In this document: positions 34,040 through 56,210 of the stretch, one piece after another
Position numbering within the stretch: position 1 is the first letter of the stretch
How the letters are laid out: every line of letters begins with the position of its first letter
DNA from: Bacillota bacterium
GTDB taxonomy: Bacteria; Bacillota; UBA994; UBA5500
DNA length: 64,000 bases
Reading direction: 5' to 3'
Assembly: GCA_029781045.1 (NCBI GenBank)
Contig: JAKOXL010000032.1
Coordinates: 1 to 64,000 of the forward strand
The notes under the pieces: model-generated
Seen by the model: only the letters and a program-made list of their open reading frames with translations
Told to the model about the DNA's origin: nothing
Database searches by the model: none
Position numbers and translations under genes: made by a program

Positions 34040-34300
34040 TAAAAAAGGCCCTTCATCCACTCTGGGACGAAGGGCCATTTCGCGGTGCCACCCAAATTAC
34101 CTGAACTACGACAGCCAGGTCAACTCTGCAAGCTATAACGGGCATACCCGTCCGGTACTACTAACGCTGGCAGCGCTTTCGAGCGGAAGCTCCTGGGTGT
34201 TCTTCGCTATAAGCCGTTGCACCGGGCTCCCACCTCTTCCCGGCTCTCTGGGGCCGTGCCCATAGCTACTCTCCCTCTCATTGCCTTCTTCTTGTTGCTA
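34040..34300 (-). promoter_or_regulatory. T-box riboswitch leader of asnS (specifier AAC, Asn)
   Basis: On the minus strand the T-box sequence GGGTGGCACCGCGA lies at about 34078-34091. It is followed by a terminator stem GGCCCTTCGTCCC...ATGAAGGGCC with a T-run (34042-34075). The Stem I region carries an AGTA motif and a specifier loop GAAGAACACC with codon AAC (34201-34199), matching asparagine. Uncharged tRNA-Asn should stabilise the antiterminator and switch asnS on. Confidence 0.93.
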
Positions 34301-41944: not shown

Positions 41945-42877
41945 ATGGCAGATATTCCGACCCATGACGTGGCCGTTATTGGCGCCGGCCCGGCCGGCTT
42001 GACCGCGGCTCTCTATGCGGCCCGGGCAGAACTGAAGACGATTCTACTGGAAAGATTGGCGGCCGGTGGGCAACTGGCAACCACCGATATGATAGAGAAC
42101 TATCCCGGTTTCCCCATGGGGATAAACGGATTAGATGCAAGTTTCGCTATGCTAGAACAAGCCCAGCGCTTTGGTGCCGAGTTTAAACTGGCGGAAGTGC
42201 AAAAGCTGGACCTAAGTGGCGAGATAAAACGGGTGGAAACCAGCGAGGGGATAATTACCGCTCCTTGTGTAATCTTGGCCACTGGTGCGCGTCCACGCTT
42301 GCTGGGAGTGCCTGGAGAAGAGCGACTGAAAGGCCGGGGGGTCTCCTACTGTGCTGTGTGTGATGGCGCCTTCTACCGGGGTAAAGAGGTGGCCGTTGTG
42401 GGTGGCGGCGATTCGGCAGTGGAAGAAGCTGTCTATTTGACTCGCTTTGCCACTAAAGTCTACTTACTGGTGAGGCGTGATCAGCTACGGGCCACGCCTG
42501 TGGTACAAGCTAAAATACTGAACCATCCGCAAGTCGAGATACGCTGGAACACGGTGGTAGAAGAGATCTTGGGTGAGTCAAAAGTAGAGGGGCTAAGCCT
42601 ATTGAACCGTGTAACCGGGGAAAAGAGCTATCTACCAGTGAGTGGAGTATTTGTCTACGTGGGGTTACTGCCCAACAATGAGGTTTTTGCTGAGCAAGTT
42701 GAACTGGACCAGAATGGCTATGTGGTAGCCGACGAAGAAATGCGCACCAGTGTTCCAGGCGTTTTGGTTGCTGGCGATATCCGAGCCAAGAGTTTGCGGC
42801 AAGTGGCGACGGCCGTTGGCGATGGTGCTATTGCAGGTGTGACGGCCCAACACTATTTGGACAGTTTAAAGCGATAG
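41945..42877 (+). CDS. trxB: Thioredoxin reductase
   Basis: 310 residues. FAD domain GAGPAGLTAALYAARAEL, redox motif CAVCDG with catalytic Cys pair, NADPH-binding GGGDSAVEEAVYLT and C-terminal FAD block VLVAGDIRAKSLRQVATAVG. It reduces thioredoxin with NADPH and can reduce selenite or selenoglutathione. It lies between the metal regulators and selA with 2 bases to selA, which is unusual and points to a role in supplying reduced selenium; the role is inference. Confidence 0.97.
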   Translation: MADIPTHDVAVIGAGPAGLTAALYAARAELKTILLERLAAGGQLATTDMIENYPGFPMGINGLDASFAMLEQAQRFGAEFKLAEVQKLDLSGEIKRVETSEGIITAPCVILATGARPRLLGVPGEERLKGRGVSYCAVCDGAFYRGKEVAVVGGGDSAVEEAVYLTRFATKVYLLVRRDQLRATPVVQAKILNHPQVEIRWNTVVEEILGESKVEGLSLLNRVTGEKSYLPVSGVFVYVGLLPNNEVFAEQVELDQNGYVVADEEMRTSVPGVLVAGDIRAKSLRQVATAVGDGAIAGVTAQHYLDSLKR

Positions 42878-42879
42878 GG

Positions 42880-44307
42880 GTGAAGGGGTTGGCAACTAAT
42901 AGCAAACAGGAGCTGTTAAAGAGACTGCCAGCAGTTGATAGTGTTTTACGGGCAGCGGCTGTGCAACCTTTGCTCCAGCAATATGGACAGGTAACAGTAA
43001 CGAGGGCGGTGCGCGCCCTCTTAGATTCCTGGCGAAGACTTATCTTGCAGGACCAATGGTCTGGGACTGATCTGGAACAGGCGTTGGCCGATATGCCAGA
43101 GGCTCTAGCCCAAGAGGTGGAAGCGGCTGTCCGGCCCAGTCTGCATCCGGTGATCAATGCCACGGGGGTTCTTATTCATACCAATCTAGGGCGGTCCCTC
43201 CTGGCCGCTGCCGCGGCCCAGCAGATTGCACAGGTGGCTAGTAGTTACTCTACTCTGGAAGTGAACGTGCAGACCGGCGAACGGGGGTCCCGTTACAGCC
43301 ACGTGGTGCAGCTGCTTTGTGAGTTGACTGGGGCGGAAGATGCCCTAGTGGTTAACAATAATGCGGCGGCCGTTCTACTAACACTGGCTGCCTTGACGGC
43401 CGGTAAGGAGGTGGTGGTTTCTCGCGGCCAGCTGGTGGAGATCGGTGGTTCATTCCGCATTCCCGAAGTTATGGCTCAGAGCGGGAGCCGCTTAGTGGAA
43501 GTTGGCACGACCAACAAGACCCATCTCTTTGACTACGAACAGGCTATAGGCCCAGATACGGCTGCCCTACTGAAGGTTCATACCAGCAACTATCGTCTTG
43601 TCGGTTTCACGCAAGAAGTGGCGGGCCGTGATTTGGCCGCTTTAGCCCATGAACATGGCCTCTTAGCCATTGAAGATCTGGGCAGCGGGGTACTTATCGA
43701 TCTGCAACGCTATGGTTTGATCTATGAGCCGACGGTTCAGGAGTCGGTGGCTGCTGGTATGGATGTGGTCACCTTTAGTGGCGACAAGCTTCTAGGTGGA
43801 CCTCAGGCAGGTATTATTGTGGGGCGCAAAGATTGTATAGCCAAGTTAAAAAAGCATCCGCTAACGCGAGCTTTTCGCATCGATAAGCTGACCTTAGCTG
43901 GATTGGAGGCTACGTTGCGTCTCTATTTGGACGAGGAGACGGCTGTACGAGAGATTCCAACTTTGCGTATGCTGACCATACCGATAGAGGAATTGGAGGT
44001 CAGGGCTCAGCAATTGGTGGCTGCTACCGTAGGAGAAGTGGGTTCTGTTGCCCAGCTAAACGTGGTACCCAGTTGGGGCCAGGTCGGCGGTGGCTCATTA
44101 CCTGGGTACGATATTAACAGCGTGGCTGTTGCTGTATTACCACAGACCATTAGTCCCGATGAACTGGAACGCCGTTTGCGTCTTGGACAGCCGGCCGTGT
44201 TTACCCGTATCTACCGCGATCAGGTACTTATCGATATGCGTACGGTACAGCCTCAGGAGTTACCTGCCATCCGCTCTGCCCTCTGTCGGGCGTTGCTTGG
44301 GAGGTAG
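42880..44307 (+). CDS. selA: L-seryl-tRNA(Sec) selenium transferase
   Basis: 475 residues of a PLP enzyme that converts seryl-tRNA(Sec) to selenocysteinyl-tRNA(Sec) using selenophosphate. Conserved parts are GVLIHTNLGRSLLAAAA, the NNNAAAVLLTLAAL cofactor region, VEVGTTNKT and the Schiff-base Lys in TFSGDKLLGGPQAG. The start is GTG at 42880, 2 bases after trxB. Directly coupled to selB, 5 bases downstream, as usual. Confidence 0.97.
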   Translation: MKGLATNSKQELLKRLPAVDSVLRAAAVQPLLQQYGQVTVTRAVRALLDSWRRLILQDQWSGTDLEQALADMPEALAQEVEAAVRPSLHPVINATGVLIHTNLGRSLLAAAAAQQIAQVASSYSTLEVNVQTGERGSRYSHVVQLLCELTGAEDALVVNNNAAAVLLTLAALTAGKEVVVSRGQLVEIGGSFRIPEVMAQSGSRLVEVGTTNKTHLFDYEQAIGPDTAALLKVHTSNYRLVGFTQEVAGRDLAALAHEHGLLAIEDLGSGVLIDLQRYGLIYEPTVQESVAAGMDVVTFSGDKLLGGPQAGIIVGRKDCIAKLKKHPLTRAFRIDKLTLAGLEATLRLYLDEETAVREIPTLRMLTIPIEELEVRAQQLVAATVGEVGSVAQLNVVPSWGQVGGGSLPGYDINSVAVAVLPQTISPDELERRLRLGQPAVFTRIYRDQVLIDMRTVQPQELPAIRSALCRALLGR

Positions 44308-44312
44308 GTGAC

Positions 44313-46238
44313 TTGAAACACGTTATCATTGGTACGGCTGGACATATCGACCATGGGAAGAGTAGCCTTATAAAAGCCCTTACCAATATAGAAACGGACC
44401 GGCTAAAGGAGGAAAAGGCAAGAGGTATTACCATTGAACTGGGTTTTGCCTATTTTGATCTGCCCAGCGGTCGGCGTGCCGGTATTGTGGATGTGCCGGG
44501 ACATGAGCGGTTTATTAAGAACATGCTGGCAGGCGCTACTGGTATAGATGTGGTCATTCTGGTGGTGGCTGCCGATGAAGGCATTATGCCCCAAACCATT
44601 GAACATCTTAATATCCTATCTCTACTGCAGACTAAGAAAGGGATAGTTGCTGTCACCAAAACTGACATGGTGGACCGCGAGTGGCTGGAGTTGGTGTTGG
44701 AGGATATAGCTAGCCGCTTGCAAGGCACGTTCCTAGAAGATGCCCCTATAGTGCCCGTATCTTCAGTTACCGGCGAGGGGCTGCCACAGTTAGTGAAGAT
44801 AATTGATGAGCTTACCGCTGAAGTAGAGAGTCGCGACGTTCATCTTCCTTTTCGGTATCCTATAGATCGAGTTTTCAGCAAGACGGGCTTTGGTACTGTT
44901 GTTACTGGCACCCTTATTTCTGGCCAAGTGCGAGTAGGGGATACGGTGGAGGTTTATCCACAGAATCTGGAGGCGCGAGTACGTTCTCTACAGGTTCACG
45001 GACAAAAGGTAGAGACAGCCTACGCAGGACAACGCGTCGCCATGAACTTGGCTGGTGTGCAAGTCTCCGATTTGGAGCGGGGGAATGTGCTGGCGGCTCC
45101 AGGGCTGTTGCGGCCTTCCCTCATGCTCGATTGTCGATTGGAGCTCTTAGCCGATGCGGAGAAGCCGCTGGCTAATAGGGAGCGACTGCGTCTCTATACG
45201 GGAACCAGCGAGGTATTATGCCGGGTCGTTTTGCTTGATGCTGAATTCCTTTTCCCGGGGGAAACCGCATTAGCCCAGTTGCGATTGGAAGAACCAGTGG
45301 CCGTACTGACTGGTGACCGCTTTGTGGTACGCACCTATTCCCCTATGTATACGGTAGGAGGAGGCACCATTCTGGATGCCCATCCCAAGAAGCGACGCCG
45401 TTTCCGGGCAGAAGGAATTCAGGAGTTAAAGCTGCGCGAGAGCGGCGGCGACTTGCAGATTCTAAATCAGACGCTGCTCAATTATAGTGACCAGTTCCCA
45501 ACGGAGAGCGAGTTGTTCCGCTTGGCAGGGCGCCCTGCGGAGCAGCTGAGTGACGCCTTGGAGACGCTGCAGGAGGAAGACCTGGCGCTGTCGGTTGTTG
45601 TTGAGGGTGCAACCCATTACTTACATGCCGAGTATCTCCAAAGGTTGGCACAGCGAGCCAGAGAAGCAGTGGAGACCTATCAGAAGCGCTTTCCTCTCCG
45701 GCCTGGAATGCCAAAGGAAGAGTTGCGTAGTCGTATTGGCCGACAAGCCAGTCCTAAGCTGTTTAATAGCCTGATAACCCTTATTGCCAGCGAGGCCAGT
45801 TTGGAGAGTCGCGGCGGGGTCGTGGCTACCCAGGATTGGCAGGTAGTCTTTGCTGGCCCCTATGCACGTATGCGGGAGCGAGTGTTGGAGTTATTGCAAG
45901 CCTCCCCCCAAGCTCCTCCCGATGTGAACGATTTGGCCACCCAGCTTAATGAGCCCAGCGAGAGAGTGGTGGAACTATTGGCCGCTATGGAGAGACAGGG
46001 AGAGATCGTGCGGGTGTCGCCCGAGCTGACTTTCCTTAAAGAGACGGTTGATGAGGTGCGTCAGTTGGTGGTTAGTTGGATCCGCGAAAATGGTAGTATC
46101 ACTTTGGCCGACCTGCGCACAGCTTTGGATACTAGTCGCAAGTTTGCTCTGCCCTTGCTGGAGTATCTTGATGCGGAGAAAGTCACAAAACGTGAAGGTG
46201 AGGGGCGGGTATTGCATCCGCAGTATGTGGGTAACTAG
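44313..46238 (+). CDS. selB: Selenocysteine-specific elongation factor SelB
   Basis: 641 residues. GTPase motifs G1 [10 protein letters not shown]2 [10 protein letters not shown]3 DVPGHERF and G4 TKTD are intact. EF-Tu-like domains 2 and 3 follow. Four winged-helix repeats occupy the C-terminal third (about 390-641), which bind the SECIS hairpin next to a UGA codon. TTG start at 44313 with GGGAGGT nine bases upstream. With selA and the tRNA-Sec at 47.8 kb it forms the decoding set; selD is not in this window. Confidence 0.97.
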
Positions 46239-47805: not shown

Positions 47806-47902
47806 GGGAGTAGATAGGTTCTGGTGTGCCTTCCGGACTTCAAATCCGGCAACGCGCTCTAATAAAGCGCGTGGTGGGTTCGATTCCCACATACTCCCGC
47901 CA
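47806..47902 (+). tRNA. selC: tRNA-Sec, anticodon TCA
   Basis: 97 bases, long as for selenocysteine tRNAs. Extended acceptor stem GGGAGTAG/ATACTCCC (terminal G-A mismatch), anticodon stem CCGGA/TCCGG with loop CTTCAAA (anticodon TCA), a long variable arm CGCGCT...AGCGCG, T-arm GTGGG-TTCGATT-CCCAC, discriminator G and encoded CCA. Its own promoter and terminator flank it. Confidence 0.96.
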
Positions 47903-52641: not shown

Positions 52642-53058
52642 TGAAGTGCACCCCAGATGTTAGACACCAATCTAGCATTTGGAGGTGCATTTCTTTTGAC
52701 CAAGTTCAGTAAGGAGTTTCGCCTAAGGTTAGTGTTGGAAGTAGAAGGTGGACAGTCGCTAACATCTGTTGCACGCAGGTATGGGGTTGGGAGAACCACC
52801 CTGCAGAACTGGTTTCTTCGCTATCAGGCTGGCGGTATGGAGCAACTAATAGCGACAAACCACTACACGCAAGAATTCAAGTTGCAGGCTATCTTCGAAT
52901 CCGTTGAAGACTTCCGAGAGCAGCTGGAAGGATACATAGATTGCTACAACCATCGACGCATTAAGCTGAAGCTAAAAGGAATGAGCCCAGTTGAATACCG
53001 GACTCATTCCTTCGAAGCTGCTACTTAATAATCTGCCCAACATTTGGGGTGCAGATCA
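52642..53058 (+). mobile_element. Internally deleted IS3-type insertion sequence (about 417 bp)
   Basis: Terminal inverted repeats of about 24 bases: left end TGAAGTGCACCCCAGATG (52642 on) and right end read backwards TGATCTGCACCCCAAATG (to 53058), with TG...CA tips and few mismatches. The only gene inside fuses the start of OrfA to the tail of OrfB. No clean target duplication is visible. It may be moved in trans by a complete relative elsewhere. Confidence 0.85.
52696..53028 (+). pseudogene. IS3-family transposase remnant (OrfA start fused to OrfB end)
   Basis: 110 residues in one frame from TTG at 52696, which has GGAGGTG upstream. Residues 1-60 give the OrfA helix-turn-helix (SVARRYGVGRTTLQNWFLRY) and the beginning of a second one (HYTQEFKLQAI). 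The rest is the OrfB C-terminus (GYIDCYNHRRIKLKLKGMSP, VEYRTHSF). The DDE catalytic core between them is deleted, so no transposase activity is possible. Confidence 0.85.
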
Positions 53059-53076: not shown

Positions 53077-53343
53077 TTAACTTAGCTCGGTCAGATCTGG
53101 TTTGCCGAAAATTATCTTCTCACCCTCATTGATGACGATACACGGCAGGCCCACACGCCCTGCTGCTTTAATTTCAGCAAAAGCGGGGTGGTTATCCCGG
53201 TAATGCAGGAAGGCCTTGAGGGTACGCATGCTTTCAGTGATTTCAACGTAGGTGAACTCCACGTTATTCTGGGAAAGAAACTCTTTCACCGGGGGACAAC
53301 CGGGTCACAGGTGGCTACCAAACATGGTGATCTGCTTTGCCAT
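53077..53343 (-). CDS. Glutaredoxin-like selenoprotein with in-frame UGA (U-x-x-C)
   Basis: Read from the ATG at 53343 (AAAGGGG upstream), codon 13 is TGA (53307-53305), giving MFGSHLUPGCPPVKEFLS, that is, a U-P-G-C redox motif where glutaredoxins have CxxC. The downstream frame of about 70 residues continues without stop: VEFTYVEITESMRTLKAFLH, and GRVGLPCIVI with the cis-Pro typical of the thioredoxin fold. Twenty-six to thirty bases after the UGA lies a hairpin GAAAG-AGUUU-CUUUC with GU in the loop, at close to the spacing of the E. coli fdhF SECIS. selA, selB and tRNA-Sec are in the same window. It is 88 residues in total. The stop-terminated reading starting at the internal GTG (53289) would lose the redox motif and is rejected. 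Confidence 0.9.
53273..53287 (-). promoter_or_regulatory. Putative bacterial SECIS hairpin
   Basis: Perfect 5-base stem GAAAG/CUUUC with loop AGUUU, beginning 20 bases after the first base of the UGA. The loop has the GU dinucleotide needed for SelB binding in E. coli SECIS elements. A lower stem is not clear. Confidence 0.6.
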
Positions 53344-53438
53344 AACATAAACCCCTTTCATAGCTAACATGGATATCGATTAGAATGTCTTATATCTATT
53401 TTATAGGTCAGCAACTTCCATGTCTAGGGGATTGATGC

Positions 53439-55650: not shown

Positions 55651-55736
55651 CCAAAAACCCTTTAATTTGAGGGTCCGATTGGCAGGATTAGGAGGTCGGC
55701 ATAGGGAAGAATAGGGTACGGAAGGAGGTTGAAGTG

Positions 55737-56210
55737 ATGAAGACAATCTGCTTTGCAGGTGGATGTTTTTGGGGGGTAGAAGAGTTCTTCTCCCGTGTTA
55801 GAGGGGTTGTATCAACAAAGGTGGGATATGCCAATGGTCACAAAGATAACCCCACTTACGAGGAGGTTTGCCGTAACAATACGGGGCATGCCGAGGCCTG
55901 TCTGGTTGAATATGATCCGGAACTGATTACCTTGCCCGAGCTTCTGCGCAAGTTCTGGAGTATAATAGATCCCACTCTGGTGGATCAGCAGGGTCCTGAT
56001 ATTGGCAATCAGTATCGTACCGGCATTTATTATCTCGACGAAGCCGATTTGCCTACGATCATTGCGTCGAGGGATGAGGAACAGAAGCGCTACGAGAAGC
56101 CCATTGTAACGGAGATCGAACCCTTACGCTGTTTCTGGGATGCTGAAGAGTATCATCAGAAGTACTTGAAAAAGAATCCTGGAGGGTATTGTCATATTAA
56201 GCTCAACTAA
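55737..56210 (+). CDS. msrA: Peptide methionine sulfoxide reductase A
   Basis: 157 residues. The catalytic Cys10 is in the signature GGCFWGVEE and the C-terminal resolving Cys in GGYCHIKL. It reduces protein methionine-(S)-sulfoxide. The ATG at 55737 has GGAGGTTGAAG upstream. Divergent from the hemerythrin gene, so the FNR-type box may also affect it. It carries Cys rather than the Sec that some clostridial MsrA have. Confidence 0.96.

Follow-up and report, generated by a model that had tools for sequence, protein, structure and literature searches.

Judged from sequence comparison, the minus-strand gene at positions 53077..53343 of the window (i.e., the whole stretch of 64,000 nt of bacterial DNA analysed here) almost certainly encodes a glutaredoxin-fold selenoprotein, in which the in-frame UGA at codon 13 (53305..53307, minus strand) is read as selenocysteine (Sec). 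The frame starts at ATG 53343, preceded at a distance of 8 nt by the Shine-Dalgarno sequence AAAGGGG (53352..53358, minus strand; shared by L002 and L003, two copies from the same genus), and ends at TAA 53079-53077. It holds a single TGA and is open from codon 13 to the TAA, which gives, with TGA taken as U, the 88-aa product MAKQITMFGSHLUPGCPPVKEFLSQNNVEFTYVEITESMRTLKAFLHYRDNHPAFAEIKAAGRVGLPCIVINEGEKIIFGKPDLTELS. The TGA takes the first position of the glutaredoxin motif (U13-P-G-C16), and the product scores 35.5 bits with Pfam PF00462 (Glutaredoxin), i.e., above the curated cut-off of 22.9. It is the only PF00462 protein found by a profile search of the source genome, while none of the NCBIfam models scored above its cut-off for this protein. 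The preliminary description of this DNA had reported the frame, its ribosome site and the placement of the TGA in the redox motif, and had predicted that a conventional annotation would start at an internal GTG. All of this holds, i.e., the mechanical ORF without recoding starts at GTG 53289, comprises 70 aa and misses the active site.

Homologs were searched in the window's class, its phylum and the class of Acetoanaerobium. After removal of duplicates, the aligned residue is encoded by TGA in 31 distinct sequences (31/31 Sec forms, i.e., the window gene and 30 others) and by a Cys codon (TGC/TGT) in 23, where the Cys set covers the matches listed with loci and includes a distant match (L012). 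Neither TAA nor TAG was seen at the recoded codon among these 31 Sec and 23 Cys homologs. The one-genome-per-species scan gave 11 loci, eight of them with TGA at this residue (L002-L009). That is, both the alignment across the UGA, set beforehand as a check on the reading, and Cys counterparts at its position were found, the latter including Acetoanaerobium noterae. Since the Sec forms span many genera and several families and come from isolates and cultured species as well as from metagenome assemblies, an assembly error is excluded. Positions invariant in the homolog alignment include Sec/Cys13, C16, K20, R49, D50 and P67, i.e., the active-site Cys16 is conserved, as is the strand upstream of the UGA. 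In the protein tree, Sec and Cys were exchanged at least 2 times on well-supported (starred) branches and 4 times by parsimony. Within Acetoanaerobium, A. noterae has Cys along with diverged downstream codons, and its congener A. pronyense has Sec along with the hairpin discussed below. A copy from the window's own genus (L002/L015 from G006, 90% identity) shows an in-frame TAG (L002 6241-6243) seven codons before the protein end, which is either a sequencing error or a shortened C-terminus.

Downstream of the UGA lies a bacterial SECIS hairpin (53271..53289, minus strand) with the stem 53289-53283 / 53277-53271, the loop AGUUU at 53282-53278 and one U-C mismatch. Its core GAAAGAGUUUCUUUC covers +19..+37 from the UGA, a stretch that reads GUGAAAGAGUUUCUUUCAC in many homologs. 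Within it, the inner hairpin GAAAG-AGUUU-CUUUC (53287-53273) puts the 5-nt loop 22 nt from the UGA, with G as second loop base. This geometry fits the published bSECIS model, which comprises a loop of 3-9 nt, a G among the first two bases of the loop and a distance of 16-37 nt from the UGA (PMC13188914), such that the near-canonical spacing claimed earlier is borne out. The window copy folded alone is not unusually stable (z -0.83), and a U-C mismatch, common to its genus, separates the inner stem of 5 bp from the G-C pair that follows. Single-hairpin stability was thus dropped as proof (z-scores between -0.1 and -2.0). It is the comparative evidence on which the case stands.

Of the Sec forms, 29/31 have an inner stem of 5 bp or more, vs. 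0/23 of the Cys forms (Fisher p ~3e-13, a statistic that ignores shared ancestry). The covariation score of 0.218 exceeds the shuffle mean of 0.121, with 0/500 shuffles as high, and all slid registers stay below the true one (at most 0.112). Compensatory changes are observed for the outer pairs 19-37 (G-C/U-A/C-G), 20-36 (U-A/C-G) and 21-35 (G-C/A-U), i.e., the structure is conserved in related genomes, a point on which the preliminary description had staked its reading. The selenoprotein reading has herewith withstood each of the three refuting conditions named there. At the codon level, pairs of Sec forms with the same residue use identical codons at +6..+10 in fractions of 0.75-0.94, which marks a sharp peak of synonymous constraint compared to 0.16-0.73 for the other well-sampled downstream codons. 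Two Sec forms have no hairpin in the common register: L009 instead forms another strong hairpin, out of that register, and in L036 no hairpin could be placed. A search for the core pattern GAAAGAGNNTCTTTC gave a single hit in the 2.0 Mb genome and none in the control. With this one occurrence, and with the frame across the TGA kept in 30 other sequences, the combination of hairpin and frame is not a chance event.

The window also encodes selenocysteine machinery, as had been stated for selA, selB and tRNA-Sec. All of the following genes are on the plus strand: selA (selenocysteine synthase, 42880..44307; TIGR00474, 621 bits vs. a cut-off of 267.9), selB (Sec-specific elongation factor, 44313..46238; TIGR00475, 388 bits vs. 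242) and selC (tRNA-Sec with anticodon UCA, 47806..47902; ARAGORN, and RF01852 with 77.2 bits). The thioredoxin reductase gene trxB (41945..42877, likewise plus strand; TIGR01292, 385 bits vs. 343) lies 2 nt ahead of selA, and selB follows 5 nt after selA; trxB-selA-selB likely form one transcription unit. By eye, Fur-like and CsoR-like ORFs precede these three genes. The selD gene was found at contig position 65592-66518, 1.6 kb past the window, such that SelA, SelB, tRNA-Sec and SelD are all found in the source genome. An in-frame TGA also occurs close to the start of selD itself (MSSTSGUASK; L074), which brings the Sec genes of the genome to two at minimum; a fold of the selD leader 3' of its UGA was uninformative. 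Given these components, ribosomes arriving at UGA codon 13 would meet the downstream hairpin bound by SelB with Sec-tRNA(Sec) and GTP, and SelB would deliver selenocysteine into the N-terminal position of the active site (U13-P-G-C16).

Among the genomes compared, tRNA-Sec with at least 60 bits is found in 29/32 Sec-form genomes, 8/32 Cys-form genomes and 0/12 others from the class of A. pronyense, a count that excludes scores of about 45-50 bits, which occur in every genome and probably stem from other tRNAs with long variable arms. The three Sec-form genomes without a clear tRNA-Sec (G624, G681, G536) possibly reflect incomplete assembly. A tRNA-Sec without the glutaredoxin-like gene is seen in four relatives from the window's class.

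These data bear on two other readings of the UGA. If it were an ordinary stop, the locus would be a pseudogene or encode the 70-aa protein from GTG 53289, and the match upstream would be a trace of decay. Decay does occur nearby, as seen from the extra TAG near the 3' end of L002/L015 and from a broken transposase just downstream of the glutaredoxin gene. Nevertheless, the codon is TGA and never TAA or TAG in all 31 sequences, which come from several families and include cultured species, conservation extends to Cys16 and to the strand before the UGA, and the short form would be left without the catalytic motif. Given the TGA/Cys homologs and the restriction of the hairpin to TGA forms, an ordinary stop appears already largely refuted and is very improbable. 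Hardly any weight goes, likewise, to readthrough by a near-cognate tRNA that inserts another amino acid (e.g., Trp or Cys). It draws on the fact that the Sec reading is founded on comparison rather than chemistry, but it is at odds with the full Sec pathway in the genome, with a hairpin confined to TGA forms, with the co-occurrence of tRNA-Sec and the TGA form, and with the use of TGA as normal stop in the window's other genes.

A Sec glutaredoxin with a UxxC motif is an already known kind of protein, such that its novelty was overrated in the preliminary description: selenoprotein glutaredoxins with this motif have been verified by experiment as a class (PMC13188914 Table 1) and were also covered by a 2006 survey (PMC1794560). 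An example is cGrx1 of Clostridium (Alkaliphilus) oremlandii with Sec13/Cys16 (PMC4479559). For Alkaliphilus metalliredigens, a second selenoprotein glutaredoxin is on record (PMC1794560), which may or may not belong to the subfamily of the window gene. What the window gene adds, and what is new, is a little-described longer subfamily (LKxFLxYRDN...GxVGxPC) without an NCBIfam model above cut-off, which earlier 'glutaredoxin' counts may include. The window protein shares with cGrx1 (PDB 7c10, 7c12) the Grx fold, the numbering of Sec13 and Cys16, the MAKx start and the VKEFLSxNNVEFT stretch, but sequence similarity covers residues 1-38 only and the full-length likeness is at fold level only. In contrast to cGrx1-like proteins, the window family has a greater length and an additional helical segment (LKxFLxYRDNxxxF), and it does not show their canonical VGFD-type ending. 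The genome of Candidatus Petromonas encodes both, i.e., the longer type (L005) and a cGrx1-like Sec glutaredoxin of 75 aa with NTUPHC (L082, G399:C61). The two genes share their SECIS core (GAAGGAGUAUCUUUC in L082) as well as its distance from the UGA.

The UXX-star families (NF041212, NF041114) likewise comprise small Sec proteins that resemble Grx and carry the Sec close to the N-terminus. An assignment to them was rejected, since the scores of 20.2 bits vs. 66 (NF041212) and 18.3 vs. 72 (NF041114) are below cut-off; furthermore, family 1 is catalogued with UxxT (PMC13188914), whereas the window protein has UxxC. The best NCBIfam match is the YruB family (TIGR02196), which is matched by all 10 members of A1, but the window protein reaches 34.8 bits vs. 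a cut-off of 88.55. The Cys glutaredoxin-related proteins of Firmicutes and Fusobacterium, which we take to be COG4545, resemble the window protein in length and in the YRDN/RDT...GxP signature. They carry Cys at the Sec position, have no SECIS hairpin and do not keep the KEFLS stretch.

An AlphaFold model (pLDDT 84.4, with an input of 10 alignment rows only) shows a glutaredoxin (thioredoxin-like) fold with E5-9, H16-25 and an extra helix, and has the UxxC at the N-terminus of helix 1. Foldseek matches are mainly glutaredoxins, including cGrx1 (7c10) and methanoredoxin, with TMq up to 0.67 and modest E-values (best 1.8e-3). Invariant P67 (in GxVGxP) presumably serves as the cis-Pro of this fold. 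From fold, motif and the comparison with cGrx1, the protein very likely acts as a small dithiol-type oxidoreductase, i.e., the Sec13 selenolate would attack the client at a disulfide or an oxidised thiol, which would yield a mixed selenosulfide for Cys16 to resolve.

With regard to the electron donor, we lean slightly towards the NADPH-thioredoxin reductase system instead of glutathione, because the source genome has two thioredoxin reductases, one of them encoded 2 nt upstream of selA, and the glutamate-cysteine ligase family PF04262, a single family present in 2/14 control genomes, was not found in it. Alternatively, the selenoprotein could draw on a low-molecular-weight thiol (glutathione or another), as classical glutaredoxins do. 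Such a donor would agree with membership in the glutaredoxin family and with the published scheme in which cGrx1 works with GSH (PMC4479559). It is disfavored by the lack of PF04262 (that family alone, which only 2/14 control genomes have) and by a C-terminal part that canonical Grx models leave unmatched (several match only residues 5-47), and we consider it rather unlikely.

In the surroundings of the gene, an MsrA of the Cys form (GCFWG) is encoded at 55734-56210 (plus strand), 2.4 kb from the Sec glutaredoxin; it lies divergently 1.6-2.4 kb upstream in 3/3 genus copies (window, L002, L003). As it is nearby in the genus copies, and as in C. oremlandii Grx serves as reductant for the selenoprotein MsrA (PMC4479559), MsrA might be a client of the Sec glutaredoxin, which we suggest with reserve. 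A conserved operon that would reveal the client was not found beyond the genus. The genes that do lie close by, namely those for MsrA, a DUF438/hemerythrin protein and a Crp/Fnr regulator, do so only in copies from the genus, and not every copy has the full set. The transposase remnant (52657-53028, plus strand) fuses an HTH_Tnp_1 head to an rve_2 tail in a single 123-aa frame, with most of the integrase core absent, and ends 48 nt from the glutaredoxin stop. Both a phage origin (no phage match) and a plasmid origin (few plasmid-collection matches, some of them to chromosome-sized records) were rejected. The window also holds a T-box leader at 34060-34290 (minus strand; RF00230, 110 bits).

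In Sec forms the hairpin is made up of the codons for the conserved helix-1 peptide KEFLS(Q)NN, and hairpin and peptide are both gone from Cys forms, which suggests that the peptide could be imposed by the RNA and not by the protein. We give even chances to this view together with its extension, i.e., that the core is a SECIS cassette and that the longer Sec-Grx lineage helps to keep selenium use. If true, the core that also occurs in cGrx1-like genes would amount to a SECIS cassette within a protein helix, either shared or put to use repeatedly, and the longer proteins would form a separate subfamily that helps to retain selenium use where it provides the sole glutaredoxin. A. pronyense (Sec) and A. 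noterae (Cys) offer a clean pair for weighing the benefit of selenium vs. the cost of the RNA signal to the protein. A gene that plain ORF calling had truncated past its active site is now corrected, and selenoprotein glutaredoxins are extended to a longer subfamily across many Bacillota genomes that goes without NCBIfam recognition above cut-off.
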